Source: Ceratobasidium sp. AG-K (taxonomy: Eukaryota > Basidiomycota > Agaricomycetes > Cantharellales > Ceratobasidiaceae). From it: a stretch of DNA of 64,000 bases. The stretch is taken from assembly GCA_037039685.1 (NCBI GenBank), contig JAWNGF010000003.1, positions 3,508,571-3,572,570 of the forward strand. The letters are read 5' to 3'. Shown here piece after piece: positions 157 through 58,938 of the stretch. Both the position numbers and the translations under genes were made by a program. Each line of letters opens with the position of its first letter. The stretch's first letter is position 1. The notes below the pieces were generated by a model, which saw nothing but the letters and a program-made list of their open reading frames with translations, was not told where the DNA came from and searched no databases.

Positions 157-3100
157 TCAAGATCCGATATGAATGAATGGCGCCCATCGAGCGACTGCCT
201 TCTCTCCCACCTCGGCGCGTAGGTGTGCTACCGCCCGATGTAGTGCCCTCGCTGCCTTTGTATGGTCCATCTTTCCGTCCTTTAGAAGCTCCGCATATAC
301 CTTGTCCGCTACCTTGGGAGCATCTTTGTCTTCAATGCTCCAAAGCGTCGCAATTACACTCGGGAACCCAGCTATCAACATCCCTGCTGCTAGATGTACC
401 GCCTCGTCTGCCAGCTCCTTGTCTCCAGTTGCGGTCTGACAGGCGGACAAGAACGCGAGTCCTTTGTCACGAAAGGATCGTTTAGAAATTGATGCGAGCG
501 TGAGGCTGCCGTCATGAAGGTAAAATGCGCTTTGCATCGCATCCGTTGTTTCTTGGCTGCCGTGGCATGCCAAGTGAATCCAGCTAAATTGGCCCATTGC
601 ATCTAGCACTCGGTCGACGGTCGCTTCGTCGTCCTCGAGCTGCAAATAGTCTCCTGGTGGCGCATGCTTTCTTATAACCGCGAGCTCGTCTTTTGTATAT
701 GGCAAGCTGTGAAGTCCCTGTGTATGCTCTTGGCCAATGGCGAGTATCCCCCGTTGATTGTCGAGTGTTGCTGACTGGCTGACCAACAAAGCGCTAAGTG
801 TTGGCGTATAGGATGATATCACAAGGTCAAATGCGCCCGGCTGGGATTGATCGCGGCCTCTGGCAGCATGGAGTGGGAGTAGCGAAAGTAATCCCGTGGT
901 GCACCAGGTGAGACGTGGTAGTTCATCAACTGGGAGCTGGGTGTGGGTATTCGTGATCAGAGTGTGCAATATGACTTACACTAATAATCCTACGTACCGT
1001 GTAGTCTAGTGTGTCAAGTACAGGTTTGACTATACCTGACCATAAATCTTCTAGCAACTTCTCAAGTGGGTCAGACTGACGTAGGCGGGGGCCAACTTTC
1101 CGGTGCCTGAATGAGCCCAAAGAAGCACTAGTGTCTATTTCTTTTGGCGAGAAATCTGGGAGGGGAACACGTATAATCGTATTATTTGGCTGGAGTATTA
1201 GAGCGTCGCAGCTGGATTGGTGAATATTGATGACAGCGATGGGATGAGACTTGGCGGTTTGCATTAATTTACTTGACTTTGGAGGGCGTAGAAAGTCCTC
1301 AAATCCAGAGATAGCACGAGCTTCACTCAAGCACCTGTCCCAGTCGGTCGCTAACTGATGATGGTCGTTTGTCCCTTTGTCGGAGAGTGAGTCACCGCTC
1401 TCATTCAAGGGTACAGAGAATGATCGCCCCCCTGCTTGCTCAAGCTTACGACCGATCTCTTTAAGCTTAGAGGCGAGAATTGGATCATGGGCAAAGAGCT
1501 GGTCAAAAGGGGTACGTAGCTGAGCTATCTGACCCCAAACAATTGAACGACCAGCTTCAAGCCACTCGAGGGCAAGGTCATAGGTGTTTGTAGAAATAGC
1601 GTATGCTGCAGCTTCTATTGCAACATCGCCCACTTCCTTTATTATGCCGTGGCGGCGATCAAGGGTCGTACCGATCCAGATTAATTGTGGGAGTAGCTCC
1701 ATAGCTTGCTGATATGCACCAAGAGGGGAAGACACGGGATCGTGATGCGCTACTTTAGCCCACCAGAGGCATGCCCTGAGCCTACTCAATGGGGACCCGT
1801 TGGGTGAGCGAGCGGCCTGCTTGAAGCATGTCAACGCAAATTCAATGTCTGCAAGGTCGTGGACAAAGCGAAATCTAACGCGATGGAGGTTCCCAAGGTT
1901 ACATAACAGTAGCGCCTGATCTCTGTGACCTGAAGTAAGAAGCGAGACCGCCTTGGTTTGATATTCAATTGCTTTGTTCAAAGGTTCTTGTTTCTTTAGA
2001 CGGTTAAATTGATCCAGGTACTGGACTGCAAGGTTGTCCAACATACGTGGTTTGAAATGATGCCCGTCGGGAGTGAGAGAAACTGCCTCTGATTCGTATT
2101 GTATGGCTCTTTCTACGTCCGCCAGATCACCGAGATGTTCGAAACGAGCGTGATATGCACCGGCCAGGTTGCTGAGTATTGCCCGCTTGTGAAAGTGACC
2201 ATCGGGAGCGAGTGAAACCGCCTGCAACTGGTACTCGATTGACCTGTCCAAATCGAGCGGCTCGTCCAGCCGCACAAACCGAGCCATGAAGGAGGATCCA
2301 AGGTTACTCAGCGCCCCCGGTTTGTTCGGGTGATCATCAGAAGAGATCAAAACTGCTTTCATTCCAGATTCAGTTGCCTTATTCAAGTCTGGAAGCTCGC
2401 CAAGAAGATGATACCGGGTGAGGTACAAGTCTCCAAGGTTGCTGAGTTTGCTTGGCTTGTCCGTGTGATCTTCAGGAAGAAGTGAAATCGCCTCAGCTCC
2501 GCATTCGATCGCTTTATCCAGGTCCAACAGCTGGCCCAAAAGCTCAAACCGGTTCATATGTGAGCTTCCAAGGTTGCTTAGAAAGCCTGGCATGTTGGCA
2601 TGATGTTTGGGAAGAAGAGAGATGGCCTCTGCCTCGCATTCGATCGCCTTGTTTAAATCATTCAGCTCGCCTATACGTTCAAATCGGCTCGAATATGAGA
2701 TTCCTAGATTGTTGAGCAGGGTCGGTGTGTCTGTGTGACCCTTAGGGAGTAGCGAAAGTGCTTCTTCCCCACATTTGATCGACTTGCTGAGATCCGGAAG
2801 CTCGCCTAGACGCTCAAACCTAGTCAAGTACGAGGCTCCAAGAATGCTGAGTCTACTTGGTTTGTCCGTGTGACCGTCCGGAGTAATTGAAACTGCCTCT
2901 TCCCCGCATTCAATTGCCCTTTTCAAGTCTAAAAGTTCGCCCAAACGCTCAAACCGTACGTGATATGCACTTCCGAGGCTGATGAGTAGATGTGGTTTGG
3001 ATGTATCGTTGTCGGGGGTGAGTAAGACCGATTCAACTCCGTACTCGACTGCTTTGTTTAAGTCTTGCAGTTCGCTTAGGTACTCGAAACGGGTCAGGTA

Positions 3101-4786
3101 CGACACCCCGATATTTCCGAGCATTCCTGCTTTAGCTTTATGCTCGCTGGAAATGAGTATGGTCGCTTCCTCCAGGCATTCGATAGCCCTGTCTAGGTCA
3201 ATCAATTCGCCTAGCCATTCGAACCGACCATGATAAAAGGTACCAAGATTGTTGAGCATATACGGCTTGTCTGTATGACCTTCGGGGAGAAGCAAAACCG
3301 CTTCTGTTCCACAGTCGACTGCTTCCTTTAAATCTGCTAGCTTTCCGAGACGTTCAAATCGAGCCAAGTACGAGTTCCCCAGGTTGTTGAGTCTGTTTGG
3401 CATATGTGGATGGCCTTTAGGAAGAAGTAGGACAGACTCTGCTCCGTATTTGATTGACTTGTTTAAGTCCAGCAACTCGCCTAGGCGTTTAAACCGACTT
3501 AGGTATGTACTTGCCACGTTTCCAAGCCGCCTCGACTTGGCAGTGTGACCTTCGGGAGTGAGCGAGATAGCCTCCAGTCCATATTGGATTGCCTTGTCCA
3601 GATCCGGGAGCTCGCCAAGAGAACTAAACCGAGCACGGAACGAATTTCCCAGACAGTCAAGTACTTCCGCCTTGTCTGGATTATCACTGGTAATAAGCGA
3701 AACCGCCTGCATCCCGCATTCAACTGCGTTGTTCAAGTCCAGCGGATTGCCTAGGCACTTAAATTGGGACTCGTAAGAGGTCCCGAGGCTGCTGAGTCGC
3801 CTTGGCTTATCTATATGGCTGTCTGGAGTGAGTGATACGGCCTCTGCTCCACAATCAATGGCCTTGCTCAAATCTGACTGGTCGCCCAACCGCCAGAATC
3901 GATCATGGTATAAATTTGTGAGATTGGCAAGTATTTGCCCCCTCAGTGAACCCTCCCCGGTAGTCAGTGAAAGCCCCTCGAGTTGGAATTCCAGCGACTT
4001 CTCCAGATCTGATAGCTCGCCTAGACGCTGAAACCGGACGTGATGTGCAATACCAAGGTTTTCGAGCACCTCTGGTTTTGCTATGTGATTATCGGAGATG
4101 AGCGAGGCAGCGTTCGTTCCATGTTTCAAGGCTTCATCCAGATCCAAAATGTTACCCAGCTGTACAAATCGAGCGAGATATGAGCTGCCGAGCTTGTAAA
4201 TTATGGGTGACTTGCTGGGATGGTCGATGGGAGCGAGTAGAACTGCTTCGGTTCCGTACTCTATCGATTTATTTATATCTGGAATCTTGCCTAGTCGCCG
4301 AAACCGAGCCAAGTATGCGTCCCCAAGACTGCCGAGCAGGCTTGATTTGCAAGAAGGGCAACAAGTAGATGTCGAGACTGCTGAATGAAATACATCAATT
4401 GCCTCGTCAATTTCTCGAATGGCTCCTGAGCTCTTAATTCGAGAAATTTTTTCAGTGTCGAGTTCAATTATCCGATGAGGGTCAACCGATGCTTTGGAAC
4501 TTAAGAGCCGCGATATAGAGTTAGTCAAGGTGTGGCTTCTCTAGCATCTCCGCCCCCATGTGATAGTAGCATTTTACGAACCTTGTTTGTGGCGTTGCCT
4601 GGATAAGAAGTGCACGATCCACCAAGCTAACCAAGTCCGACTCGTTGCCTTGATCTGAGTTCTTGCCATAATTTGACGGGGGGTTTTCCCAAAGTAAGTT
4701 ATCGAGACTGATCTTGGTTTGTGTACATTCGGTTGATTCTGTGTCGCCTGGTTCGAGCTCGCGCGAATCTTGGGTAAAAGTGCAAA
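157..4786 (-). CDS. TPR-CHAT protein A (caspase-like protease with TPR solenoid), 5' end unresolved
   Basis: Predicted exons are 4582-4786, 998-4499 and 157-936, giving about 1495 residues so far. The middle exon holds about 20 degenerate repeats of 46 residues with the core 'RFxRLGELxDLxKAIE' and 'SLxPDGHxxKPxxL', typical of TPR-like helical pairs. A helical linker follows ('QQAMELLPQLIWIGTTL', 'WLEAGRSIVWGQIAQLRTPF'), and the CHAT domain begins near 'HPIAVINIHQSSCDALILQ'. The last exon carries the expected catalytic His in 'IHLACHGSQ' and Cys in 'FLSACQTA'. Introns are 937-997 (61 bp, GTACGT...CAG, phase 0) and 4500-4581 (82 bp, GTTCGT...TTAAG, phase 2). Exon 4582-4786 encodes a polar, acidic, probably disordered segment without an ATG. 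A further, very short intron at 4787-4825 (39 bp) is possible but unproven. CHAT domains are known as peptidases that often sit behind TPRs. The substrate and cell role here are unknown. Confidence 0.85.
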
Positions 4787-7194: not shown

Positions 7195-7400
7195 GCTCGT
7201 CTCGTGGGCATGGGCGTTAATGTCCGCGAGCTCGACTTTTGTGCCGGGTAGCGGACTTGGGCTGGGTGTATGCCCCTACCCGACAACGAGTAGCCAACGA
7301 TATGGATCACTATCCCCAGACTGTTTGGCAAACGAAGCGCTGAGGGTGTGAGTGTATGTGACGATATAACGAGCTGGAAATCTTCATAGGGTACAGCGAC
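7195..7400 (-). pseudogene. Relic of a TPR-CHAT gene (CHAT portion only)
   Basis: Read on the minus strand, this segment matches the start of the CHAT exon of the paralogues across changing frames. 'YEDFQLVISSHTLTPSALRLP' corresponds to 'FDLVISSYTPTLSAL'. A second frame, interrupted by a TAG, gives 'GHTPSPSPLPGTKVELADIN', matching 'EHTPGLNPLPGTKAKLAVIK' of copy C. No TPR repeats or catalytic motifs remain nearby. It is best read as an old, frameshifted copy of the tandem family lying between A and B. The limits are approximate. Confidence 0.7.
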
Positions 7401-8693: not shown

Positions 8694-11600
8694 TCAACAG
8701 CCAAAATGGATGAACGGCGCCCATCGTGCAATCGCATTCTCCCCTACATCCTTTTGCCCGCGCAAATGCGCCACCGCCAGGTGTAATGCCCTGGCTGACT
8801 TCGTGTGATCCATCTTTCCACCCTTTATTAACTCCTCATAAACCTTATCGGCTACCAAGGGGCCATCCTTGTCCTTGATACTCCACATCGTCCCAATTAC
8901 ACTGGGATATCCCGCCATCAACATTCCCGCCGCGAGGTGTGCAGCTTCTTCTGATAGTCTCTTGTCTCCCGCGGCAGTATGGCAAGCGGAGAGAAACGCA
9001 AGCCCCTTATTTCGAAATGATCGCCTTGTCAGTGCTGCGAGCGTGAGTTTCCCGTCGTGAAGATGGAAACCACTCCGCGTTGCATTATTTGCGTCTTGAC
9101 TGCCATGACACGCCATATGAACCCAACTGAACCGATCCATTGCTTCGAGCACCGGCTGCACAGTTGCTTGGTCATTTTTGATCTCCCGATGGTAATCAGC
9201 CTGAGTGTGCTTCCTGACCACCTTCAGTTCCTCATTGACAAACGGGAGGCTCGAGAGATTAGGTGTATTCTCCTGGCCGATAGCAAGTATTCCAGACTGA
9301 CAGTCGGCTGTTGACTGACTTTGCAATAATGCACTCAGCGTCGGCGTGTAAGACGATATTACAAGATCAAATGTATTGGGGTGAGACGGATCGTTGGGGC
9401 CAGATGCGTGAAGCGGTATGAACGAGAGCAGACCAGTAGTGCACCAAGTAAGACGCGGTAGTTGGTCAATGGGCATTTTTTGCTGTGTTGAAGGCACTCA
9501 AATGAGCCTCACTATGAACTTAATAGAGAGATGTACATGCCTTGTAACCAAGATGATCGAGTACAGGTCTGACTACACCCGTCCACAAGTCTTTAAGACC
9601 AGTCTCGTTCCATTCATCTTCATATTCGTGGTCTTCAAGAGGGCGACGGTACCCTACAAGTGAGGAAATGTGTTCACGTGCCGCAATTGCGCTCTCTACA
9701 GAAAAATCCTCTAGGCGAATGTGAGATATCCCATTTGGTCGAAGAATCAGGGCGTCACAGCGTGACTTGTGAACATTGACAACAGCTATAGGATGGGACG
9801 TAGCAGCACCAAGTAGCTGGTTGGACTGGAGAGGCCGCAAAAAGTTTTCAAATCCAGGGATAGTAGAACGAGCCTCGCTCAGATACTCGTCCCAGCTGAG
9901 TGCCAATTGTATATGATTTTTTGCTTCTTCACTCTTATTTTGTTTGTCAGCTCCGAGTGATTGGGTGAAGCCTGACCGGGAGCCTGCGCGCTCAAGCTTG
10001 TGGCTGACATCGTTGAGTTTGCGTGCAAGGTCTGGATTGTGAGCGGCAAGTTGATCAAAAGGTGAACGCAGCTGAGCTATCTGGCCCCAAACGATCGAAC
10101 GGCCCGACTCGAGCCATTCAATAGCAAGCTCGAGATTATTGATAGAAATGGCATATGAGGCAGCCTTTGTAGCAAAATCTCCCACTTCCATCATCAGACT
10201 GTAACGTCTTTCGATTGTGGTACCGATCCAGATTAGCTGTGGGAAAAGTTCCATTGCTTGCCTGTATGCTGCAATAGGGGAGGAATTTGTGTGAAACGAT
10301 GCCAAGTCTGCCCACATGCTACATGAGGCGAACCTTTCAATCGGTGGCCCGGCAAAGGATTGTGCAGACTTTTCGAAGTAGTTCATCGCTGACTGGACGT
10401 CTAGATGCACTTTTGAAAGGCGATAACGGGCGAAATATGCGTGCCCAACACTGTTGAGTAGTGCTGACTCTTCTGGGTGACTATTAGGAGTGAGCGAGAC
10501 TGCTTCTAATCCGCACGCAATTGCTTCGTTCAGATCAGGCAGCCCACCGAGACGCTTGGACCGAGTCCGGTAGGCGACACCAAGATTGCGCAGCCTTCTA
10601 GGCTTGTCCCAGTGACCTTTGGGGGTGAGAGATACTGCCTCTGACCAGCACTCGATTGCTTTATTCAGGTCAAGCAGGTCACCAAGATCATTAAACCGGG
10701 TCTGGTAACAGATCCCAAGGTTATTCAGTATCCCTGGCTTGTCTGAATGGCTGTCAGGAGCGAGTGAAACTGCTTTTGAACCCCATTCGATCGCTTTATC
10801 TAGATCAAGCTGCTCGCCGAAACGTTCAAAACGAGCTCGGTACGATGCTCCAAGGTTACCGAGTAGCCCTGGCTTACTTATTTGGCCTTCGGGAGTGAGT
10901 GGGATTGCTTCAGACCGGCACTCGATTGCTCTATCCAGATCAGGCAACTCCCCAAGACGCTGAAACCGAGTCTGGAATGCGTTTCCGAGGTTGCTGAGTA
11001 TACTGGCCTTGTCCGGATGATCGTTGGGGATGAGTGAGACTGCTTCTGACCCACACTCGATTGATTGGTTCAAATCGGCCAGCTCGCCAAAACGCTCGAA
11101 CCGACTCCAGTATGAAATTCCCAGAATGTTGAGTCTTCCAGGTTTGTCTGGACTATTTTTTGTGGTCAGCGATACTGCTTTCGACCCGCAATCGATTGCT
11201 CTGTTCAAATCAAGCACATCGCCTAGACGTTCAGACCGCGCCCGATATGAGATTCCAAGATTGTGGAGCCTTCCAGGCTTGTTAGCATGTCCATCAGAAG
11301 TGAGTGACACTGCCATTAACTGGTATTCAATCGCTCTGTTTAAATCACTAAGCTCGCCGAGGTGGTCGAAACGAGTCCGGTATGAGATTCCAATGCTGGT
11401 GAGTATGCCGGGCCGGTCTAGGTGGCTGTCTGGAGTGAGGAACATCGCCTCGGATCCGCAATCAATTGCTTTATTCAGATCCAATAGCTCGCCGAGACGC
11501 TCAAACCGGCTCCTGTACGCGTTCCCCAGATTATTCAATATTCCAGGCTTGTCTGGATGACCGTCAGGAGTGATTGATAATGCGTCTGATCCGCATTCGA

Positions 11601-13056
11601 CTGCTCTATTGAGATCCGATAGCTCTCCAAGACGCTTAAACCGAGTCCAGTATGAGGTCGCAAGATTACTGAGCCTTCCTGGACTACTTGGGTGGCTTTT
11701 GGGGGTGAGTAATACTGCCTCTGACCGGCACTCGATTGCTTTGCCCAAATCTAATAATTCACCCAAGCGCTCAAAGCGAAGCTGATATGAGCTTCCAAGG
11801 TTATTGCATATGATATGTCTGTCCGGGTGACCGGCAGCAGTGAGCGACAATGCTTCTGACCCACAATCGATCGCTCTATTCAGATCAAGCACCTCGTTCT
11901 GGTGTCCAAACCGGGTCTGGTACGAAACCCCAAGATGGTCAAGGATTGTCGGCTTGTTTGGATGATCATTGGCAGTGAGCAAAACTGCTTCTGAGCCGCA
12001 CTCGATTGCTGCATTCAGGTCACTCAATTCTCCGAGGCGCTTGTATCGGGCACAGTACGTGATCCCGAGATTGTCGAGTGTTCCCGACTTGTATGGATCT
12101 CCATCGAGAGTGATTGACACAGCCTCCGACCCGTGCTCAATTGCCTTATTCAGATCCACTACCTCACCAAGGCGCTCAAATCGGGTTAGATATGAAATCC
12201 CAAGGTTTTCCAGCATTCCTGGCTTGTCTGGATGCCCGTTAGGAAGGAGTGAAACAGCCTTTAGTGCGCAATCAACGGCTGTATTGAGGTCAAATGCTTC
12301 GCCAAGGCGCTCGGCCCGAGCCCGGTACGAGTTCCCAAGGTTGCTGAGTCTCCTGGGTTTAGCAGGATGATCGTCCGGAGTAAGTGACACCACTTCAGAG
12401 CGGAGCTTGATTGCACTATTCAGATCTGGCAACTGGCCAAAACGTTCAAATCGGGCCAGGTACGAGCTCCCAAGATTATTGAGCATTCCAAGCTTGGCTG
12501 AGTGATCTTGGGGCACAGATAAAATCGCCTCAGAACCGCATTCGATCGCCTTATCCAAATCCGGTAGCTTTCCAAGGCGCCTGAACCGAATCCGGTATGA
12601 GTTACTAAGCGTGTCGAGTCGCCCCGGTTTATCTGGGTGATTAGTAGGAGTGAGTGAAACTGCCTCCAACCCGCACTCAATTGCTCTGTCAAGGTCAAGA
12701 ACCTCGTCGAGGCGCTCAAATCGAGCAAGATACGCGGACCCGAGGCCATCAAGCAGTATCAGCCTGTTTACGTGGGACCCGGGCGTTAGAGGTACAGCAG
12801 AACTCCAACAATCGATCGCCTTATTGATGTCCTCGATCGCACCCGAACGGCGAAATTGAGAGTACAGGGAAGCTCCCAATGCCAATAGCTCATCGGGAGA
12901 TTCGTCCTCGGACCTAACAATCAATCATTTTTGTAAGCTCGTGCCTAATCTCTCCAAGCTTTTGGTGCGAAATTTATGAAAAGCGCAACGTCCCGCTCAC
13001 CTCATCTCCAATGTCCTTTCTAATATCTCACGAAAATAACCCGCCCAATCATCCAT
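8694..13056 (-). CDS. TPR-CHAT protein B (caspase-like protease with TPR solenoid), complete
   Basis: Exons 13001-13056, 9541-12913 and 8694-9482 give a complete frame of about 1405 residues. The start is the ATG at 13056, giving an N-terminus 'MDDWAGYFREILERTLEM' that splices in phase 2 through intron 12914-13000 (GTGAGC...TTAG) into 'RSEDESPDELLALG'. About 19 TPR-like repeats of 46 residues follow, then the helical linker and the CHAT domain from about residue 1055. The last exon carries His about 1269 in 'VHMACHGSQ' and Cys about 1310 in 'FLSACHTA'; the paralogues have Q where this has H after the Cys. The second intron (9483-9540, 58 bp) aligns with the CHAT intron of the paralogues but has a GC donor (AAG|GCATGT). 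No in-frame stop is seen, so the gene looks functional. Confidence 0.9.
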
Positions 13057-16150: not shown

Positions 16151-17459
16151 AAGTGCTTGATATTAAGAAAACAGCTGCAATACCTTTGAGTTTGACTTGC
16201 TTATTGACACAAAGTGTCTTTTTTTTTCCTACATGCAACACCTGAAGTGTACGGCTTGTGATAATTTTGATGATTATTTCCCACCCACATGCCAAGGAAG
16301 AAACAACTGAGTTCTTTGCTCTCCCCAAGCGTATCATCATTCAATTTCAATCAAGCGCCAATATGGAGAAACAGTGCCCATCGTGCAATCGCCCTCTCCC
16401 CTACCTTTGCACGCCGGTGAGCAACTGCTTGGTGCAATACCCTCGCCGCATTTGTATGGTCCATTTTTCCACCCTTCAGTAACTCCGCGTACACCTTGTC
16501 AGCCACCACCGGCCCATCTTTGTCTTCAATACTCCACGTTGTGCCGATTACACTTGGAAACCCTGCCATTAGCATCCCTGCTGCCAGATGCATTGCCTCC
16601 TCTGCCATGTTACGGTCACCTGTAGCAGTTTGGCAGGCAGACAGGAACGCAAGCCCCTTGTTTGGGAATGACCGCTTGGTGAGAGTTGCAAGTGTGAGAC
16701 CACTGTCGTGAAGATGAAACACGCTCCGTGTTGGGTCCGTGGTTCCCTGGCTCCCATGACAGGCCAAGTGAACCCAGCTAAATTGTTCCATTGCATCTAA
16801 CACCTGTTCGACGGTTGCTTCCTTGTTCTCAAGTTGTAGGTATCCGCCTACTTGAGCATGAGCTTTGATGACAGCGAGCTTGGCTTTTGTGCCAGGCAAC
16901 GGATTGAGGCCAGGTGTATGCTCTTGCCCAACAGCAAGCAGCCCACAATAGGTATCAGTATTGAATGACTGTTTAGCAAACAAAGCGCTGAGAGTGGGCG
17001 TATATGATGATATTACAAGGTCAAATACGTTAGGCTGGAAATCCTCGTAGGGTCCAGCAGTGTGAAGTGGAAGAAAGGAGAGAAGGCCTGTGGTGCACCA
17101 CGTGATGTGCGGAAGCTCACCAATTGGAAGTTTTTGCTATATATGCATTATTTCGAGTAAGTTGGTGCATCTTTTATCAGGTGTTGAGTTCAATGCGCAC
17201 CGTGTAGCCAAGAGACTCAAGACTAGGTTTGACTACGCCAAACCACAACTCCCCCAGTGACTTCTCAGGGGAGCCAAACTTGTTGAGACGGCCAGGTTTC
17301 TGGTCTCGACCTAGTGAAACCAGGTGTTCTCATGCTGCCACCGCTTTCCCCATTGAGAACTCTGTCAATGGAATATGAGCAATGGTGTCGCTGTTGGGTT
17401 GAAGTATCAGAGCATCACAACGGGACACGTGAACGTTCATGACAGCAACAGGGTGTGAT

Positions 17460-17913
17460 TGTCGTGAGCTAGCTCACTCCATCGGACTCGCCCGTTGTCT
17501 CGCCCGCCTGTCCTCTTCTTTGTGTTGTGTTTCTGTTTCTGTTTGCCGCGTTGCCACCTTCTTGTGGTTATATGTTACATTGTGTAACGCGGCTGTGCCT
17601 TGCACGAGTCATGTCTGTTCATACAGCATGACTCACATGGACACTCCTGACTGGCTGTTTTGTATGACTCATGTGGCTGCGCCTTGTATGACTCGGCCGC
17701 TTTCTGAATATATATAGAGGACCAACAAGCCTGGTAACCCCAGCTTGTTTTGTCTCGTCAAACATCCCCTTTGAGTGACACTTAGAACCACCCCTACCCT
17801 CAAGAGCCTACAGACACTTAAGTGTGTTGCGGTTCAAGAGGTCACTTAGGTCTTAGTGCCGTCCACTCTCCATCGCGGCTTGTCTCATAGCCACCAAGAA
17901 GAAGCTTACGACA
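17460..17913 (+). mobile_element. Solo LTR of a Ty3/Gypsy element, 454 bp
   Basis: It begins TGTCGTGAGC and ends GCTTACGACA, flanked by the 5-bp duplication GTGAT (17455-17459 and 17914-17918). It belongs to the same family as the LTR at 58939-59395, roughly 90% identical by eye, with the 3' half nearly identical and differences concentrated in the first 150 bp. A TATA-like TATATATA lies near 17708. No internal sequence remains, so it arose by LTR-LTR recombination after inserting into the linker/CHAT part of gene C. Confidence 0.95.
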
Positions 17914-18720
17914 GTGATTTGACAGCACCCAGTAGCTGGCTTGATGTATGAGGCCGTAAAAAATCTTCCAACCCGGGAATGGAGCGAGCCTCATTTAAAA
18001 GTCTTTCCCAGATGAGCGCAAGTTCTATTCGCTCACTCGTTTCTATGCTTGATTCTTTCTCGTTGTCTTCAAGTAGCTCTATGAATAAAGTTTGTGACCC
18101 TGAAATCTCAAGTTTGTGACTGACTTCCTTAAGCCTGCTTGCAAGACCGGGATTCTGACTGAAAAGCATCTCAAAGGGGGTACAAAGCTGAGCTATTTGG
18201 CCCCAAACAATCGAGCAACCCGCTTCAAGCCACTCAAGAGCAAGCCCATAATCACGGATGCGAATCACATAAGACGCAGCCTCCGTCGCAAAGCCGTCTA
18301 AGTTTGCTACAAGGCTATAGTGTTGGTGGAGGGTAGTGCCAATCCATATGAGCTGGGGAAGCAACTTGAACGCTTGCTGATAGGCGTCAAAAGGGGAGAA
18401 CACGTCATGGAGAGATACCAATTGAGTCCATTCTTGGCATGCTCAAAACCTAAAAAATGGAGACCCACCAAGCAACAGCGCAGCCTCTTTGAGGCAAGTT
18501 ATCGCTGACTCGTAGTCTGAAACCTTGTTTGAAACGCCATATCGGGCGATGTATGCACTTGAGAGGTTGGTGAGATGTCCCGGCTTGTCTGCATGACCAT
18601 CAGGAGTGAGCAAAACCACCCAAGATCCATATTCAATCGCTTTGTCCAGGTCTTCCAGCTCGCCTAAGTGTTCAAACCGAATTAGGTATGTGTTTGCAAG
18701 GTTGCTGAGTTGACCTGGCT

Positions 18721-18945
18721 TGTTGAAATCTATTATTTACATGTATATACACATAGAACATTCCTGTACAATCGAGACCAGCGTATGCGTACATTGCTTA
18801 TGCTTGTTTTGGTTTTCACCCGTGTATATAAAGAGCTGGTACGATGTAGTTGTCCAATAGCCAATACATTCATTTGTCTCATTACTTGGGCTGCGCTAAG
18901 GATTGTAGATACATTCTGTTGTATATCTACATTCTCATTTCTACA
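18721..18945 (+). repeat. Left LTR of the Copia element
   Basis: It starts TGTTGAAATC and ends TTTCTACA, with TATATAAA at 18825-18832 as a likely promoter TATA box. Compared with the right LTR it has T at three sites where the right copy has C in CpG, plus one further C/T difference. Confidence 0.95.
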
Positions 18946-18957
18946 GGTTATGAGCCC
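18946..18957 (+). promoter_or_regulatory. Primer-binding site of the Copia element (initiator-tRNA anticodon arm)
   Basis: GGTTATGAGCCC directly abuts the left LTR. It is complementary to the conserved anticodon stem-loop of initiator tRNA-Met (GGGCUCAUAACC), not to a tRNA 3' end. This implies priming by a cleaved half-tRNA, as known for Drosophila copia. Confidence 0.75.
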
Positions 18958-19020
18958 TGCAGAAGGCTACTAACCTAGATCATCGATTATTGGCCGCTTA
19001 GCATCGATACAGCCGAAACC

Positions 19021-23766: not shown

Positions 23767-23835
23767 AATTGATTTTTGTGTATACTGAAGTTCCCAATGT
23801 TTAGCTCATTTTGTTGAGTGTGTACGCTCGCTCGA

Positions 23836-23846
23836 TTGAGGGGGAG
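23836..23846 (+). promoter_or_regulatory. Polypurine tract of the Copia element
   Basis: The purine-rich run ending GAGGGGGAG lies immediately before the right LTR. This is the expected position for the plus-strand primer. Confidence 0.85.
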
Positions 23847-35745: not shown

Positions 35746-35849
35746 AGGAATGGTCCAACAATCATGATCATCTTTAGGCCTGAAGCACTCACCCATTAGT
35801 CACATGGACGTTAACCTGAGGTTATGGGTGTATTTGATGTCTTGTTTCC

Positions 35850-36507
35850 CCACTCGAATTCCAGATGACCTGAAACTTGGCATATGGGTAGCATGACATA
35901 TGCTCTATTATATCGCAAACTTGAAAGGTTGTGATTGCTATGGGAAAGTACATTACAAGTAACAGAAAGTTAGCGCTATGCCGATGTTTTGCAATTGTTG
36001 CCACTTTACTACTTCCAGAATGACCGAGTCGTAACTCCAATAATACAGTTGTGTACTTTAGACTGCTTCGCACATTTTCTATTATTGTCATGCTATGTGA
36101 TCTCTTAAGATTGGGGTGCTGTGAGCCTGCAGATTCCAAGGACTGACTTATCCAAATCTCCACCAAAACAGCACTAAATCCTACAGAAATTGGCCAAAAT
36201 GAACTCTAGTCCATGCTAAACATAATTCTATTTTCACTCGGTTTTTGCGTCCGCGATTCAGCTCAATATGCACTAATTCACTCCCTCCTATATGCGTGAC
36301 CAAAATTATTGCACCATCACCTTCCTGCAGTTTTGGCACTCTAGGATCTTGGGATAGGCAACCCGCTTAGGTAATGTACTCGGACATTTATTGTGACTAT
36401 GTATGCACACTGTAATATCCTGAAGCCTTACAGACACATTCTTCGAGGGCCAGAGCGCAAAACTCGACTTTCAGTCACGTGGTGCAGTCAATTTGGCGCC
36501 CAGTGTA
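35850..36507 (-). repeat. Right arm of palindromic element 1
   Basis: 658 bp, inverted copy of the left arm. Near-perfect identity over the whole length implies recent origin, ongoing gene conversion between arms, or both. Confidence 0.85.
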
Positions 36508-39077: not shown

Positions 39078-41953
39078 TCAAGCACCAATGTGGATGAACG
39101 GCGCCCATCGCGCAATCGCCTGTTCTCCCACCTTCTCACGTAAATGTGCAACCGCCTGGTGCAGGGCCCGGGCTGCCTTTGTATAATCCATCTCTCCGTC
39201 CTTGAGCAACTCCCCATACACTTTGTCGGTCACCAACGGGCTATCTTCGTCTGCAATGCCCCACAATGTGGTAATAACACTCGGGAAACCCGCCATCAGC
39301 ATTCCCGTTCCGAGATGTACTACTTCATCCAGCTTATTCTCGTCTGCTGTGACGGTCTGGCAGGCTGACAAAAACGCCAGCCCCTTGTTGGTAAACGATC
39401 GCTTCGTAATTGCCGCGAGTGTCAGGTCGCCATCATGTAGGTGGAAGGCACTTTGCATCGGGTCGTCGGAATTCTGACTGCCATGACAGGCCAGATGAAC
39501 CCAGTCAAACTGGTCCATCGCATCCAGCACTTGATCTACTGTTGCTTCTTCACCTTCCAATTGTAGGTAGAGGCCAGTTTGAGCATTTTTCTCAATCGTT
39601 GCCAGCACGTCTTTTGTACCAGGCAAACCGGGCGGGCTGAGTGTATGCTCTTGACCGATACCAAGAATCGAGCAATGAGTGCCCGGAGTCGTTTGCTGCC
39701 TCGCCAAAAGAGCGCCGAGGTTTGGTGCATACGACGATATTACGAGGTCAAATGCATTGGTTTGTGTTTGATCGTAACACCCCGCGGCGTGCAATGGGAG
39801 GAATGAGAGCGGGCCGGGCGTGCACCAAGTAATGTGGGGCAGCTGGTCAACCGGCAATTTTTGCTATATATGCGTCGTCAGAATGCATCAAAACCTGAGT
39901 AAACGTGCGTACGGTAATTCCAAGAAAGTCCAGTACGGGCTTCACAATGCTTAACCACAAGTGTTCCAGTGATTCCCCTAGTGGGTTGGGCTCGTCCTGG
40001 TGGAAATCGGGCTTTCGATTCCTCGACAAGGAGGCGATATGTTGACGTGCCGTAATGGCCTTTTCGAAATCAAAGTTCGGCAAGGGAACGTGAGAGATGA
40101 CGTCGCTTTTTGGCTGGAGTACGAGTGCATCGCAGCGGGACTTGTGGGTATTGATAATGACAACAGGGTGAGACTCGGCAACGCGCAATAGCTTGTTGGA
40201 CTTAGGAGCGCAAAGGAAGTCCTCGAACCCAGGAAGGAAACGAGTATGACACGAGAGTGCATCCAACTCAAGTGCTAACTGCATGGAACGGTTTACATCT
40301 TGATTTAGGTCCGTTATATTGTTTCCAGATACAGATGTTGAGGGTGATCGGGGGCGCGAATCCTCGAGCTCGCGAGAGACTGCCTTCAGCTTGCTAGCGA
40401 GGTCAGGATTCTGGACGACGAGCCCATCAAGTGGTAGGCGGAGGGGAACTATCTGGTTCCAGATGGTTGAGTGACCCTCCTCAAACCATTCAAGGGCAAG
40501 ATCAACTGCGCCGGTAGCAATAGCATGCGATACCGCCTCGGATGTAAGGTCAGCCACTTCTGGAAGGAGACCGTAACGCCGACTGAGAGGGATACCAACC
40601 CAGAGCACCTGCGGCAGCAACTGCATAGCCTGCTGGTACGCAAGGCGAGGAGAGTGCACTGAACCCGGGGAAGCTAGTCGTGCCCAAGTCCGACATGCTT
40701 CGAATCTTAGGTTCGGAGGCCCTGTAGGGAATTGGGCTGCAGTTTTGAAGGAGACTATTGCAGAATCCAAATCCGCAGAAACTTGTAAGCGATCGAATCG
40801 AGCGATGTACGAATGCCCAAGATTGGTGAGTAGTCTAGATTTGTCCGGGTGCCTGTCGGGGGTGAGTAATGCCGCCTCTGCCACAAATTCAATTGCCTTG
40901 TTCAAATCCAACAATTCTCCCAGGCGTTGGAATCGAGTTAGATGCGAGATCCAGAGATTGCCAAGCATCCTTGGCCTGTCTGCGTGGCCAAGAGGAATAA
41001 GTGAAAGTGCTTCTACTACGCATTCGTTGGCTTTGTGTAAATCCGAAAAATCCCCCAGACGTTCAAACCGAGTGCGGTGTGCGTCTCCAAGGTCGCTAAG
41101 TACCCGTGGCTTATTTGGATGGCCTTCAGGAACAAGAGATACGGCCGCTGTGATAAATTCGATTGCTTTGTTCAGATCTGACAGTTCCCCAAGGCGCTCG
41201 AACCGAACGCGATGTGAGGTTCCAAGATTATCGAGGACGCCTGGCTTGGCCGGGTGGCCGTCGGGAACAAGTCCAGCCAGCTCCGCTAGGTATTCAACTG
41301 CCTTGTTTAAATCTGATAATTCATCCAGGCGTTCAAATCGGGTGCGATACAAGTTTCCGAGGTTGTTGAGCCTTCCCAGCTTGTCTACGTTCCCGTCAGG
41401 GGTGAGTAAAACGGCCTTGACCGCATAATCAGTCGCCTTGTTGAGATCTGATAGTTCTCCAAGGCGCTCAAACCGAGTACGATGTAGGTTTCCGAGCTCA
41501 TGCAGGACGTTTGGCTTGTGCGAGTGGCTGTCTGGAGTGAGCTGAGCGGCTGCAACTACGTATTCAATTGCCTTGCTCAGATCTGATAGCTCCCCGAGAC
41601 TTTTGAATCGAACATGGTATGAAACTCCAATGTTGTTGAGCGTGCTTGGCTTGGCCAGGTCAGTATCGGGAGTAAGCAATAAGGCCTTTCCGATGAATTC
41701 GATGGCTTTGTTCAAGTTTGCTAGGTCGCCCAAGCGGTTGAAGCGATCTAGGAGTAGGTTTCCGAGTTCGTTGAGTAGCTGTGGTTTATTTTCCTGCGTA
41801 TCAGGGATGAGGAAAACGGAAATTGTTTTTTCTTCAATTGTTTTATCTAATTCTGAACAATTGGATCATGCCGAAGAGTTAGCATTTCCTGCCATACGAA
41901 CCACATATTTACCAACCTGCGTTCAGCATCGATCCTGCTATACCCGAGGCCAT
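39078..41953 (-). CDS. TPR-CHAT protein E, short form with 8 repeats
   Basis: Exons 41917-41953, 39913-41852 and 39078-39863 encode about 920 residues, the shortest of the readable copies. The proposed start is the ATG at 41953 ('MASGIAGSMLN'), spliced through intron 41853-41916 (CAG|GTTGGT, branch GCTAAC, TTCAG). About 8 TPR-like repeats follow, then the linker and the CHAT domain ('HPVVIINTHKSRCDALVLQ'). The last exon has 'VHLACHGSQN' and 'FLSACQTV'. The CHAT intron is 39864-39912 (49 bp, ACC|GTACGC...ATATAG). The N-terminal repeat motif seen in the other copies (RSGAIEDIN) is missing, so either repeats were lost from the front or the true 5' end differs. An alternative frame through the intron (about 41850-41993) is also open. 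The enzyme part looks intact. Confidence 0.82.
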
Positions 41954-43087: not shown

Positions 43088-44471
43088 TCAACAAAGCTCG
43101 AGGTCATCATGCTCCTGAGCCATGAAGCCAAGCTCTCCAACCTCGATGTCTTCTCTCCGACGCCGATACAACGAGTTTTTGAGGACCTGGAACGACTCCA
43201 TAGTTTCGGTGGAGATTCGGTTGCGCTCATTGGTACAATTCAACTTGCTCGATGAAAAAACGCGCTCGGACGAGACCGACGAGGCTTGGACCGGGAGCAT
43301 GCCCATGACAATCCGATACAACAATGGATAAGTGAATTGATTTGCCTATGGGTAAGCACTTCAGTTGACACACTTTGAGCTTATGAATGGTGCTTACCTT
43401 CCAATACTCGGTTAGTCCGACAGCTCCCAGCACCTCGATCGCAACCATTCCGGCAGAGATATAGTGATTCAGTTCAAACTCAACGGCGCCGAGGTTGTGA
43501 GCCCGAATTTCAGCCGGCGAGGGGGCCAATCGCCCGTGAGTGATTGCCGGAAGGGCGTGGCTGGTGTTATCGGAGCTTGACCCTTCGGGGATCGAAATGT
43601 TCCTAATAAACACAGTCAGTGAGGGGGAAATATATATATATATATATATAACCAATATGGGGGTAACTTACGGCGCTGGATCCGAGGAAACATGGCTGGA
43701 TGCTTGCTGAATGCGCTGCCCCTGTGTGAGAGCCCGGAGGTATCCTCGGGCTTGCGATCGCGAGGCGGCGTTCCCTCGCGAGTAGGACTCGGTAAGAGTG
43801 CGCTCGTACGACTGCCGCTGGAACTCGAGCATCTAGAGCGTGTGTCTTGGGTCAAAATGTGCATTATGTGTGGAAATTCTAGTTACCTTTTGCTTCACAA
43901 CATTGTAGGCTCTGTGGCGACCGTAAGGTGCCCAATTCTCGTTGATCCAATCGAACTTCAGCGAGGGATTGACTACCATCACCAGGGTCAGCAGTCAGGA
44001 CATTTAGTGGCAACATGGGCGCAAAAACCACTTACAAGCAGAGTCTGCAGCGGAGGTGCCCAGATTGAGGGTGCCCGAGTGAGTCGAAAGGAACAGCAGC
44101 TTGTTGCGCTGCATCTGCAGCCACTTGCGCATCGATTTCCGCTTCAGGTACGTCTTCATTTGTGTCAACAGGTGTGACCCAGTACCACACGTCGTGAGCA
44201 GCGGAGCGGAGAGGACGTGAGGGTACCGAAGACACAGGTTCAGTCAGGGTTGGAGGAACGGTCTCGGCTGCATCGAGGACGGCCTCAAGCGCTGCAATGC
44301 GAGACTCGACTTGCTGGCGGCGATCTGCAAGGTCGTAAGGCGTGAGTTCGGTCTTTCCAGACCTCTTGCGCTTAGCAGGACCAGCCATAAGGGGTGTGAA
44401 GGCCTGAGACTTTGTTGAGAATGTTGAATCGCACAAGTCTGAGTGTCACTTACAGTCTGACCTGGTGCCAT
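43088..44471 (-). pseudogene. Truncated hAT-family transposase gene, multi-exon
   Basis: The C-terminal exon (43088-43345) reads 'SSVSSERVFSSSKLNCTNER', the hallmark of the hAT dimerisation region. It joins in phase 0 across intron 43346-43397 to 'AVGLTEYWK', giving 'YWKANQFTYPLLYRIVMGML'. Further exons are 43398-43602, 43672-43832 and 43887-43972, with canonical introns. The 5' exons (44036-44409 and 44454-44471) contain 'KRKRSGKTELTPYDLADRR' and end at 'LRCRLC', perhaps the first half of a BED zinc finger. The join between 44036 and 43972 does not keep phase by my reading, and the catalytic DDE region is absent. The total of about 370 residues compares with the usual 600 or more. It is therefore an internally deleted transposase, or less likely a domesticated remnant. 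Confidence 0.7.
43631..43650. repeat. (TA)10 microsatellite in a hAT intron
   Basis: Ten TA units lie inside predicted intron 43603-43671. Confidence 0.9.
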
Positions 44472-45602: not shown

Positions 45603-46276
45603 TGCACTATTCCACAATAATGTTGCAGTCTGCCACTGCGTGCGAGGATCGGTAGCTATCAGTTTGATGCATCAATAGGAATTGTAGCCAAGGTGGTCGA
45701 AATTACATATACAAATTTTGAGCGAGATCCATCCTCCTCACGCCGAGGAATAACAAGATGTCTATTCACCATGTTGCGATATTATTGCAAATTAGGCTCA
45801 CAAGGGAGCAACACCACGAAGATGGGTCGATCTCGATGGTTTTGCAACCGAATTTGATCAATTAAAAGACGCGAAACATCTCTAGAGCACCTAAAGGTCG
45901 TTCTTACAATATAGGGAAGTGATCAACCTAGTCTATGGCTCGCTATGGGTGTATCATATTAGGGTGTCATCTCCTCTTTCCCCCTCATCTGCATAGTATT
46001 ATAAGTGAATAAAGTAGGTTGGAATATTGTACACAGGTGTTATTTAAGTTTCTAAGCACATATGTGAGGTCTTGGAGCCCCCAAAATTAGCTGCTAATTG
46101 TCGAAACTGTATTGTACCCAAAATCGGCATTTATGCGCCAATAGAAATGAACCACCAGTCAAGCTGATGCTGGTATTTATGCCCCTATTAGCTCTTTAGA
46201 GATTTATTGGAGTCTTAAGAGTATACTGTCAAAGGTCCGAGACCTCGGAGTAAGTACAACAGGAGATAAATAGCAT
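45603..46276 (+). repeat. Left arm of palindromic element 2
   Basis: 674 bp. It is nearly identical to the reverse complement of 46339-47034 apart from the missing 22 bp and changes near the outer end. Confidence 0.82.
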
Positions 46277-46338
46277 ACATATGCCCATGCCTGTACTTTG
46301 AGTGTATTTTCCTGGTGTATAGTGCCGCTTTTGCCCTG

Positions 46339-47034
46339 ATGCTATGTATCTCCTGTTGTACTTACTCCGAGGTCTCGGACCTTTGACAGTATACTCTTAA
46401 GACTCCAATAAATCTCTAAAGAGCTAATAGGGGCATAAATACCAGCATCAGCTTGACTGGTGGTTCATTTCTATTGGCGCATAAATGCCGATTTTGGGTA
46501 CAATACAGTTTCGACAATTAGCAGCTAATTTTGGGGGCTCCAAGACCTCACATATGTGCTTAGAAACTTAAATAACACCTGTGTACAATATTCCAACCTA
46601 CTTTATTCACTTATAATACTATGCAGATGAGGGGGAAAGAGGAGATGACACCCTAATATGATACACCCATAGCGAGCCATAGACTAGGTTGATCACTTCC
46701 CTATATTGTAAGAACGACCTTTAGGTGCTCTAGAGATGTTTCGCGTCTTTTAATTGATCAAATTCGGTTGCAAAACCATCGAGATCGACCCATCTTCGTG
46801 GTGTTGCTCCCTTGTGAGCCTAATTTGCAATAATATCGCAACATGGTGAATAGACATCTTGTTATTCCTCGGCGTGAGGAGGATGGATCTCGCTCAAAAT
46901 TTGTATATGTAATTTCGACCACCTTGGCTACAATTCCTATTGATGCATCAAACTGATAGCTACCGATCCTCGCACGCAGTGGCAGACTGCAACAAAATCA
47001 GTCACGTGTTGCAATATTATTGTGGGATAGTGTA
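46339..47034 (-). repeat. Right arm of palindromic element 2
   Basis: 696 bp. It keeps the CACGTGACTGA motif near its outer end that the left arm has lost. Confidence 0.82.
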
Positions 47035-47689: not shown

Positions 47690-50600
47690 TCAACACCCGA
47701 TATGCATGAAAGGCGCCCAACGTGATATCGACTTTTCTCCAACCCTTGCACGCAAGTGGGCCACAGCTCGATGCAATGCCTCCGCCGCCTTTGTATGGTC
47801 CATCTCACCGTTCCCCAACAGCGCTGCATACACCCGGTCTGCTATCAGCGGGCCGTCCTCGTCAGCAATACTCCACATCGTTCCAATCACGCTCGGGAAT
47901 CCTGCCATCAACATTCCCGCTGCCAAGTGCACAGCCTCTTCTGGTAGTTCCTTGTCCCCTGCAGCGGTCTGACAGGCAGATAGGAATGCCAACCCTTTGT
48001 TCTGGAAAGAACGCTTGGTAATTTCCGCAAGTGTAAGACTCCCATCGCGGAGGTGGAAGGCGCTCTGAGTGGGGTCGGCCACATTCTGGGTACCATGGCA
48101 CGCCATATGAACCCAGCTAAACTGGTCCATCGCGTCAAGTACTTGCTCTACAGTCGCCTCATCATTTTTCAGCTGCAAAAATACATGTCCATGTGCGTGC
48201 TTTTCAATAAGTTGCAGCTCGTCCTTTACGCATGGCAAACTGTCATAACCAGGGGTATGCTCTTGGCCAACAGCAAGAATGCCACAACGAGCTTTAGGGT
48301 CAGAGACCATTGACCGACCGGCGAGCAAAGCACTGATTGTAGCCGCATAAGAAGAGATCACAAGGTCAAACGCCTTAGGCAGGGACTGGTCGTAGCACCC
48401 AGCGGCGTGAAGTGGGAGGAATGAGAGCATGCCCGTGGTACACCATGTGAGACGTGGAAGTTCATTAACAGGGAGTTTACGCTGTAGTACGTGTTGAGTT
48501 TCGATAGCTCTAGTCGCCCAATTAGACTCACCATATAGCCTAGGAAATCGAGTACAGGCTTGACCACACCTAACCAAAGGTCTTTTAGTGACTGCTCAAG
48601 CGATCCCACGGAGGATTTTTTGGCTCTGGAAAACCCTCGGTGCCCAACTAACGTAGCTAAGTGTTCACGCGCTACGAGTGCGTTGGCTGCAGAGAACCCC
48701 TTCAAGGGAATGTGAGACACAGTGTTGCTATTTGGTTGAAGAATCAGGGCGTCGCAGCGGGTTTTGTGAATGTTGATGACAGCGATAGGATGGTGCTTGG
48801 CAGCTTTAATCAACTGTTCTAATCGAGGAGATTGCAAAAAGTCCTCAAAACCAGGAACGGAGCGAGATCTGTTCAAAAGTGTGTCCCAGTTTAGGGCTAG
48901 TTGAATGAAGCTGCTCTCTGCTTTGTCCAAGTCTTTTTCGATGCTTTCAAGAGATGGCGCGTGGGCTAGTCGGGAACCTGAACCGGCGTGCTCCAAATTC
49001 TGACTGACCTCCTTTAGCTTGCTTGCAAGTTCTGGATCATGAGCGGAGAGGTGGTCTAAAGGTGTGCGTAACTGGGCTATCTGGCCCCAAACAATCGATC
49101 GACCTGCCTCAAGCCACTCCAAAGCAGTTTCGTGCTCATTAATAGTAATAGCAAAGGCTGCAGCTTCTGTAGCAAAATCGCCAAGTGTTTTGATAAGGCT
49201 GTAGCGCCGTTCAATTGTAGTACCAATCCAAACGAGCTGTGGGAGTAACTTCATGGCTTTCTGGTAGGCAGGAAAGGCAGAGGGTATGTTGTGGTCGGAT
49301 GCAATTTCGGCCCATGCACGGCAGGCTGAGAACCTTAGGAACGGTGACGCGGCAGGGCATTGCGCAGCAGATGTGAAGCAGAATACTGCAGACTCAAGGT
49401 CTAATGGCTTACGTGAGTAGTCAAGTCGAGTCCAGAATGAGTTTCCAAGGTTTCTGAGCCTGCACGACTTGACTCCGTGATCATCAGGCGTAAGCGAAAC
49501 TGCTTGCCCTCCATACGCAATCGACTTTTCTAGGTCCGCCGTATCGCCGAGATGCTTGAACCGAGAGAGGTACGATGTTGAGAGGTTGCTGAGAGAGCCT
49601 GCCTTGACAGCGTGGCCATTAGGTATGAGCATAACTGCCTGAGTTCCGCACTCGATTGCTTCGTTGAGGTCATTCAGGTCGCCGAGGGAATGAAATCGAG
49701 TTTGGTATGAGAGCCCAAGGTTGTTGAGCATCCTAGGCTTGTCTGCGCAGCTATTGGGTGTCAGCGAAACTGCCTCGGCCCCATACTCGATCGCCTTGTC
49801 CAGGTCAAGCGGATCGCCCAAACGTCCAAACCGAATATGATACGTGCCCCCGAGATTTCCGAGAGCGATTTGCCTGCCTGAGCCACCATTGGGCCCGAGG
49901 GAAACTGCTTCTTTCCCGCAATCGATTGCTTTGTCTAAGTCTGGGAGCTCACCGAGACGCTCAAAACGGGTCCGGTATGAGGTTGCAAGGTTGGTGAGAA
50001 GGCCCGGCTTATCTGCGTAACCCTGGGGACTGAACGATACTGCCTGAGCTCCACATTCGATTGCTTTGTTGACGTCTGTCAGGTCCCCAAGACGCTCAAA
50101 ACGAGTCCGGTACGAGATTCCGAGGTTGTTGAGTCCGCGGAGCTTGCCTTCGCAGCTGTCGGGTGAGAGCGAAACCGCCTGCGTTCCGTAAGCTATTGCC
50201 TTGTTGAGGTCGAGTGGGTCGCCAAGGTGTTCAAACCGAGTGACAAGTGAGGCTCCGAGGTGATTGAGCCAACGTGGTTTATCTGCGTGGCCGTCAGGCG
50301 CGAGCGAAACCGCCTGGGCTCCGTACTCTAGCGCTTTGTTCAAGTCCACAAGCTCGCCCAGCCGTTCAAATCGAGTTTCATATGAGCACCCGAGACCGTA
50401 GAGTCGTCTTGGTTTGTCTGCGTGACCATCGGGTACGAGAGAAACTGCCTGCGCTCCGCATTCTATTGCCTTGTTCAGGTCGACTAACTCGTCGAGGCGC
50501 TCAAAACGAGTTTCGTATAGGTCTCTAAGGCTATAGAGCAAGGTTGGCTTGACTGCGTCGCCGTCATGTGTGAGCGAAACCACTTGAGTCACGCATTCGA

Positions 50601-51375
50601 TTGCCTGGTTGAGGTCTCCTAGCTCCCCAAGGCGCTCGAACCGGGTATGGTACGAGAGTCCGAGGTTGGTGAGATAATTTGCCTTGTCCGGACAATCGTC
50701 CGGTGTAAGACGAAGTGCCTGGGTAATACACTCGACCCTATTGTTTAGGTCGACCAAGTCGCCGAGGCGCTCAAATCTGGTTCGGTATGAGTTTCCGAGG
50801 TTATGGAAGAAGCTTGGCCTATTCACATGATCATCGGGAGAGCGTGAAACCGCCTGTACCCCGTATTCGATCGCTTTTTCCAGATCTGAGAGGTTTCCTA
50901 GCTTCTCGAACAGATCCAGGTATGCACATCCTAGATCGTTATTTAATCCGGGCTTATCCGCATGGGAGTCGGAGGCCATAGTCGCTGCTGCTTTCCAGCA
51001 AATGGTCGCCCCGATAACGGCTTTGATGGCACCTGAACGTAGAAACCTCCCGTATAAGGCACCGGCATTATTTATCGCATCCCGAATGCAGTCATCTTTG
51101 GACCTGCAAAGCGAAAAAGCAGTCAGTTCGGACATGAGTGCACTCATTAGGGGCGTATTCTAGGCAGACACCCGCCACGAACCAAGTTTCTGATATTCCC
51201 ATTGACAAATGATCAACCAGACTGCTAGCCTGGGCGTCGATATCGTAATTGTCCCTCACGTGTGTATCAACAGTGTCACTTGGGTCGCTGGACTTCTGTG
51301 GGGGGCTATCAGATATTTCTTCCGTCCTTATTGTTCCCGTTGGCTTTGTATCGCGTTCTTCCTGACCACTCGACC
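47690..51375 (-). CDS. TPR-CHAT protein F (caspase-like protease with TPR solenoid), start unresolved
   Basis: Exons about 51183-51375, 48532-51103 and 47690-48481 encode roughly 1185 residues or more. The upstream exon is acidic and polar ('SDPSDTVDTHVRDNYDID') and joins in phase 2 across intron 51104-51182 (GTTCGT...TTTGCAG) to 'SKDDCIRDAINNAGALYGRF'. About 13 TPR-like repeats follow, many close to the consensus 'TRFERLGELxDLNKAIE'. The linker and CHAT region ('HPIAVINIHKTRCDALILQ') lead into the last exon with 'VHMACHGTQN' and 'FLSACQTA'. The CHAT intron is 48482-48531 (50 bp, ATG|GTGAGT...TACAG). No disabling change was seen. An acceptor-like CACAG at 51376 suggests one more 5' exon. Confidence 0.87.
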
Positions 51376-53250: not shown

Positions 53251-53299
53251 TTTTCAAACTCTCCCCCAGCTGACCTAGGACGTTTCATAAAACTAGTAT

Positions 53300-54070: not shown

Positions 54071-54137
54071 TGTACGCATTATAAAGTGAACCGAATGATA
54101 ATATATTTACAGTAAGTTAACAGCGGGTTTATACATG

Positions 54138-58214: not shown

Positions 58215-58938
58215 TCAAACTCCAATGTGTATGAATGGTGCCCATCGCTCAATTGATGTATCCCCCACTATTGTGCGTAACTCAACCACGGCTTGGTGTA
58301 GCGCTCTTGCTGCGTCCGTATAATCCATCTTGCCATCCTTCGATAGCCACGCATATACCCTATCTGCTACTCTTGGACCATCTTCGTCGGCAATACTCCA
58401 CATCGTACCTATGATACTTGGGAACCCTGCCATTAACATTCCTGCGGCGAGGTGTACCGCTTCCTCTGGTATATCCTTATCCCCAGTGGCTGTTTGGCAA
58501 GCAGAGAGAAATGCCAGACCCTTGTTGGTGAATGAACGCCTAGTGATTGCCGCGAGCGTGAGATTGCCGTCGTGGAGGTGGAACGCGCTTTGAGTTGGAT
58601 CGGTCGTGTCTTGGCTCCCATGACATGCTAGGTGAACCCAGCTAAATTGGTCCATCGCATCCAACACCTGATCAACGGTTGCCTCGTTGTTCTCGAGCTG
58701 TAGATAGAAGCTTGTGGATGCATGTTTCTCAATAACTGCTAGCTCGTCTCTTATGCACGGCAAGTCGTCGAAACCTGCTGTATGTTCCTGTCCAACAGCC
58801 AGGATCCCACAATGAGTGCTGGGATCAACTGGTTGCTGTGCAAGTAAAGCACTTAGGGTTGGAGTATAAGACGACACGACTAGATCCAAGGCGTTATTTT
58901 TGGATCCATCATATGTTCCAGCGGCGTGAAGGGGGAGA
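58215..58938 (-). pseudogene. TPR-CHAT gene G, CHAT C-terminus only; disrupted by a Gypsy insertion
   Basis: The final CHAT exon is open from 'LPLHAAGTYDGSKNNALDLV' to its stop and keeps 'VHLACHGSQD' and 'FLSACQTATGDKD'. At 58939 the frame is cut by the 3' LTR of a minus-strand Gypsy element. The rest of the gene (TPR repeats, linker, start of CHAT) should lie beyond the element, outside the window. The 5 bp next to the LTR, GGAGA, should be repeated on the far side if the insertion is simple. No stop codons or frameshifts are visible in the remaining exon, so the insertion may be recent. Confidence 0.9.

Follow-up and report, generated by a model that had tools for sequence, protein, structure and literature searches.

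Old, diverged TPR-CHAT protease genes in Ceratobasidium sp. AG-K and signs of receptor-like repeat evolution in their family

In this study, we analyzed a 64,000-nucleotide stretch of the genome of Ceratobasidium sp. AG-K (the window; contig C3, positions 3,508,571-3,572,570; genome of 53.6 Mb on 17 contigs), in which genes combining TPR repeats with a CHAT protease domain lie in a row. It seems about as probable as its opposite that the genes in the window form an old same-strand row within a very large fungal NOD-less family of receptor-type proteases whose repeats evolve in an NLR-like manner. Each protein combines a TPR-like solenoid, whose 45-amino-acid units number 8 to 27 in the complete arrays examined, with a conserved linker and a predicted C-terminal CHAT cysteine protease. 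The family members resemble receptors that keep their protease while the number of repeats and a few residues are remodelled.

First, CHAT domains appeared to be abundant in this genome. A total of 103 matches were found, 25 of them on C3; 83 of the 103 exceeded 550 bp and fell into 13 clusters under a 20-kb rule, the largest being formed by the seven domains of the window. These seven lie on the minus strand, and each exceeded the cut-off of Pfam (PF12770). Three further same-strand CHAT domains (3,453,097; 3,470,480; 3,483,261) form a cluster about 25 kb before that of the window. Several CHAT loci are also duplicated on their own contig (C1, C5, C6, C8 and C10), at a fixed offset or mirrored, which suggests either segmental duplication or haplotypes joined in the assembly. 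The copies in the window are as follows:

157-4528, minus strand: copy A; CHAT 160-930, linker 998-1816, 19 TPR units 1811-4336; all three free of stops.
7204-7365, minus strand: CHAT relic between A and B; weak (tblastn E 7e-4; 23 bits in another search), with no Pfam match at E 0.1.
8694-12924, minus strand: copy B; CHAT 8697-9488, linker 9544-10368, 18 TPR units 10465-12885; looks intact.
16351-25793, minus strand: copy C; CHAT 16354-17136, linker cut by a solo long terminal repeat (LTR), 2 + 13 = 15 TPR units.
30749-34375, minus strand: copy D; CHAT 30752-31537, linker 31592-32422, 15 TPR units 32414-34375.
39078-41856, minus strand: copy E; CHAT 39081-39863, linker 39913-40740, 8 TPR units 40756-41775; looks intact.
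47690-51147, minus strand: copy F; CHAT 47693-48484, linker 48535-49368, 13 TPR units 49363-51051; looks intact.
58215-58946, minus strand: copy G, represented by the 3' portion of its CHAT domain; beyond the window end lie the CHAT start, the linker and at least five TPR units.

In copies A, B, D, E and F, the TPR array, linker and CHAT domain follow each other without a stop save in a short presumed intron before CHAT, and these five look intact from repeats to CHAT. Splice sites were read by eye, including an apparent GC donor in the linker/CHAT intron of copy B. Copy C is disrupted: a copia element sits in its TPR array and the solo LTR in its linker, and its units contain two stops. Copy G has its CHAT domain split by a Ty3 insertion, an interrupted linker and no TPR unit within the window. 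Thus, the preliminary description of seven head-to-tail genes plus a relic was right about the seven domains and overstated the number of working genes, since C and G are broken by retrotransposons. Its claim of a strongly conserved CHAT end applies to the motifs: the His and Cys residues, which we take to be the catalytic pair, are kept in all seven domains of the window in the alignment and in all 32 CHAT sequences compared (CHG in 31, CHA in one). It applies less well to the whole domain, because 28-35% of the residues of copy D differ from those of the other six.

Second, the repeats of the window were found to be diverged. The unit is 135 bp (45 amino acids) long and not 138 bp as first described; Tandem Repeats Finder gave a 135-bp period in four of five rows (the remaining row being an 11-bp repeat), in agreement with the hidden Markov model (HMM) used for counting, which was trained on 66 units of the window itself. 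The previous counts were exact for C (15, as 2 + 13), D (15), E (8) and F (13), whereas A and B have one unit fewer than proposed (19 and 18 instead of 20 and 19). Mean pairwise identity between units of a copy was 42-52% at the amino acid level and 54-61% at the nucleotide level, the most alike pair in any copy reached 80% of amino acids, and the longest exact in-register repeat was 14-18 nucleotides (A, B, D, E and F compared). Near-identical 138-bp units in the window were thus ruled out by the unit HMM, the identities and the exact-repeat lengths. High internal conservation is defined in PMC4986451 as at least 85% identity among repeats over at least 100 amino acids; by our proxy of at least three units at 85% identity or more, it was observed in none of the six window copies with units.

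The array could not be explained by one recent tandem burst either, because its copies interleave with those of other contigs in the CHAT tree. In this tree of 32 sequences, G grouped with C1 and C2 copies (support 0.984), F with a C1 copy (0.880) and B with D (0.996); C with E (0.672) and A (0.358) were left unsettled. In addition, the nearest relative of 208 of 314 TPR units sits in a different gene. Judged from these comparisons, the row of the window is old, as are its diverged repeats.

Third, young arrays were found elsewhere in the same genome. One unit of the array L026, which lies at C3:3,293,398-3,303,268, was used as a DNA query and gave 247 matches at several loci. The 21 inner units of L026 have a mean identity of 0.958 and contain an exact 1,253-nucleotide repeat at an offset of eight units, showing a recent block duplication. 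Four genes on contig C4 (L032-L035; the C4 quartet) carry 27, 19, 16 and 9 units, respectively (degenerate first and last units counted in each), and their arrays step by 135 bp with the exception of one 138/132 pair. Their linker and CHAT regions are gap-free and identical at 1665-1673 of 1688 nucleotides (98.6-99.1%); the main difference among them is the number and mix of near-identical units. The ratio of nonsynonymous to synonymous substitution rates (dN/dS) in their CHAT domains was 0.06-0.19 (six pairs), showing purifying selection on CHAT in this one young paralogue group; linker changes were too few to judge. Mean identity of inner units was 0.886-0.958 in L026, L032-L035 and L037, 0.826 in L036 (10 of its 13 units; this gene belongs to the same-strand cluster before the window) and 0.795 in L038. 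Two side observations concern TPR arrays outside the window: the strand opposite the TPR array of L032 (C4:5300700-5306900) is open for 1,242 codons (813-4541), probably a by-product of the homogenised repeats, and the coordinates of C8:798k-806k hint at a TPR-CHAT gene whose array is interrupted by about 5 kb when compared with its twin at C8:434k.

Fourth, amino acid polymorphism is concentrated at few positions of the unit, and several of these positions share one face of helix A. When 225 inner units from other arrays were compared, with L026, L015 and two duplicate loci set aside, variability was highest at positions 45, 6, 19, 9, 44, 29, 41 and 10. This set of eight was defined without the arrays C4, L026, L036, L037 and L038 and then tested on these five, using units that matched the array consensus by 72% or more, and array-wide synonymous diversity (piS) as denominator. 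Nonsynonymous diversity (piN) at the eight positions exceeded piS in C4 (piN/piS 2.33; bootstrap range over units 2.10-2.73), L026 (2.61; 2.05-3.58) and L037 (2.22; 1.72-2.94); it was close to piS in L036 (1.03; 0.81-1.27) and L038 (0.96; 0.69-1.22). At the remaining positions, the ratio was 0.22, 0.16, 0.41, 0.24 and 0.38, respectively, and leaving position 45 out of the set gave 1.79, 1.94, 2.19, 0.86 and 1.00 in the same order. Nonsynonymous sites of L026 and C4 fell on high-entropy positions to a degree matched by only 4 and 1 of 20,000 random sets, and synonymous sites did not (12,033 and 10,783 sets). The excess of piN at predefined sites in three of five groups lies above the neutral value, and it should be regarded as suggestive only because units are not independent. 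Variability in helix A was one-sided (reached by 17 of 20,000 shuffles), with a weaker tendency in helix B (944 of 20,000), and positions 44, 6, 10 and 9 deviate by no more than 75 degrees from the variable face of helix A. From general TPR knowledge and the NLR case in PMC4986451, this face may line a concave ligand-binding groove. No paper printing TPR hypervariable positions was found in our literature search.

Taken together, these observations allow a mechanism to be proposed. A ligand bound in the concave groove would release the protease, which would then cleave an effector acting after it; by analogy, this could be a gasdermin-like protein that forms pores. The end result would be cell death or defence on meeting non-self; ligand, substrate and any immune role are inferred here. 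Arrays would move from a fast phase, with homogenised and number-changing units, to a slow phase with diverged units as in the window, and retrotransposons would meanwhile remove copies. More tentatively, the basidiomycete TPR-CHAT genes may form a large NOD-less repertoire of receptors that unite sensor and executing protease in a single molecule, with specificity rebuilt by in-frame duplication and deletion of 45-amino-acid units together with diversifying selection on few exposed positions. The analogy with fungal recognition receptors drawn in the preliminary description appears weak for the window, because the repeats there are diverged and unit-number contrasts among paralogues 28-35% apart in CHAT say little; it is partly borne out by the unit differences of the C4 quartet and by piN above piS in three of five groups.

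A number of results weigh against the receptor-type reading. None of the window copies has signs of the fast phase. Differences in repeat number between near-identical genes were seen in the C4 quartet, that is, at four loci of one genome; the near-identical pairs L010/L012 (13/13 units) and L011/L013 (16/16) have equal numbers, and coordinates also suggest equal lengths for the C5 and C10 pairs. Over whole units, piN/piS was 0.60 in C4, 0.59 in L026, 0.38 in L036, 0.73 in L037 and 0.49 in L038, and two of the five young groups (L036 and L038) have piN about equal to piS even at the variable positions. The strongest of all sites, position 45, is rotated by about 105 degrees from the variable face of helix A; positions 29 and 41 are outside this helix. 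No partner gene was recognised in the intergenic open reading frames (ORFs) tested, and the gasdermin profile PF04598 had no match in this genome, nor in any control genome, which makes this blank uninformative.

We weighed three other explanations. An unlikely one is that these are regulated proteases without an immune role (separase-like or signalling), with the TPR arm as a scaffold for substrate or partner and repeat changes as tolerated noise; however, a housekeeping enzyme would hardly be expected to have 103 CHAT matches, to lie in same-strand clusters and to include copies broken by retrotransposons, and site-specific piN above piS in three of five groups also argues against it. Under neutral repeat dynamics, arrays would be homogenised and resized by unequal crossing-over, with the variable positions being unconstrained surface sites; this would account directly for the block duplications, as products of such exchange, and for the two more diverged groups with piN close to piS. 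We consider it rather improbable in view of the piN/piS values of 2.2-2.6 in three groups, at positions taken from other genes and with bootstrap lower bounds of 1.7-2.1, although this excess is suggestive only. Finally, it is quite doubtful that assembly errors (mis-joined haplotypes or collapsed repeats) produced the copy-number differences on C4 and some of the duplicate loci, because, despite the regions present twice on one contig at a fixed offset or mirrored, the four C4 copies differ at 15-23 of 1688 nucleotides outside the repeats and in unit content besides number, and RPB2-type genes turned up at just three places, once each, which argues that the assembly is not globally doubled.

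We then compared the receptor-type family with known systems. The copy D ORF (30749-34306) was folded with AlphaFold2, and the predicted fold matches those of Craspase TPR-CHAT and separase (separase/caspase-like), with 12-15% identity to Craspase TPR-CHAT in structural alignments; the His and Cys motifs align with those of solved TPR-CHAT chains. The type III-E Craspase TPR-CHAT (Csx29) thus has the TPR arm, linker, CHAT fold and motifs in common with the predicted model, whereas it is bacterial, acts on the Cas7-11 complex and shares only this 12-15% structurally aligned identity. A scan of 18 ORFs in the window revealed no NOD domain; the window copies are thus not NLRs. NLR-type genes are numerous in this genome too (150 NACHT-type NPHP3_N matches scored among 340 candidates); none of the 150 scored PF24883 matches (340 candidates) has a same-strand CHAT 0-9 kb downstream, NB-ARC and other NACHT models not being searched.

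The TPR-CHAT kind is already known from fungi. PMC12881547 reports a TPR-bearing CHAT protease that activates a gasdermin in Podospora anserina, as well as protease domains directly fused to TPR, WD40 or ANK repeats, and PMC10197012 states that 19% of fungal gasdermin genes lie within 10 kb of CHAT genes. As described there, the P. anserina two-gene cluster likewise combines TPR and CHAT; it has a gasdermin partner, whereas none was identified here (by a profile that was blank in controls as well), and the present family differs in its very large size, tandem stretches and repeat-number differences between near-identical young paralogues. For HNWD and the TPR-bearing NLR Pa_2_10340, PMC4986451 and PMC12222747 report near-identical repeats, repeat-number polymorphism and polymorphic sites at the concave side of the TPR helices; here, such repeats are confined to sister genes outside the window. 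Unlike fungal NLRs, the present proteins have no NACHT or NB-ARC, and the effector is a C-terminal protease. The main text of PMC4986451 contains no word starting with "chat", and our searches of open-licence PMC papers turned up no report of repeat-number change or site-specific diversification in TPR-CHAT genes that lack a NOD.

Two protein searches listed 120 relatives each, with a top identity among the matches listed of 57% for copy D (best 120 of 2058) and 46% in the second search; no close relative was among them. By eye, Rhizoctonia and Ceratobasidium make up most of the first list, and the second includes other Agaricomycetes as well. Of the 219 relatives listed, 203 have at least five units, and in 9 of these 203, three or more units share 85% identity; therefore, homogenised arrays occur in other fungi too. 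Rhizoctonia and Ceratobasidium proteins annotated as "CHAT domain-containing" or "aromatic di-alanine and TPR containing" have the same architecture and 45-amino-acid spacing, are uncharacterised as far as our searches show, and reach at most 57% identity to copy D among the best 120 of 2058. One listed relative (P0081) combines NACHT, TPR and CHAT, and two others (P0124 and P0199) have kinase domains according to precomputed Pfam lists; these combinations may be gene-model fusions.

The transposable elements that interrupt copies C and G are the following:

17460-17905, minus strand: solo LTR in the copy C linker; 89% identical to the Ty3 LTR at 58947-59395 and inverted relative to it.
18721-24071, plus strand: copia-type LTR retrotransposon in the copy C TPR array; 225-bp LTRs 98.2% identical.
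58947-64000, minus strand: Ty3-type LTR retrotransposon in the CHAT domain of G, with reverse transcriptase, RNase H, integrase and chromodomain; it extends 2,174 bp past the window, and its 449-bp LTRs are 99.3% identical.

A palindromic element at 35088-36507, with two arms of about 660 bp that are 99.7% alike and copies of about 96% identity at C4:3945k, C13:277k and 345k, C3:3409k and other places, is probably a foldback transposon. Almost the same short ORF on each strand of 45621-46997 suggests another inverted-repeat element. Among the intergenic ORFs (10 tested against Pfam of 176 with at least 60 amino acids), nothing was found but the relic of a hAT transposase dimerisation region at 43091-43345, and PADLOC, run on three ORFs, gave weak BovA matches alone (13-17.5 bits).

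In fungal non-self recognition, repeat-number evolution has been described chiefly for NLRs. If our reading is true, a NOD-less family of this size would show that a protease can itself serve as the base of a recognition repertoire, and the C4 quartet, whose members differ mainly in the sensor arm, would make it testable what fungal CHAT sensors detect.

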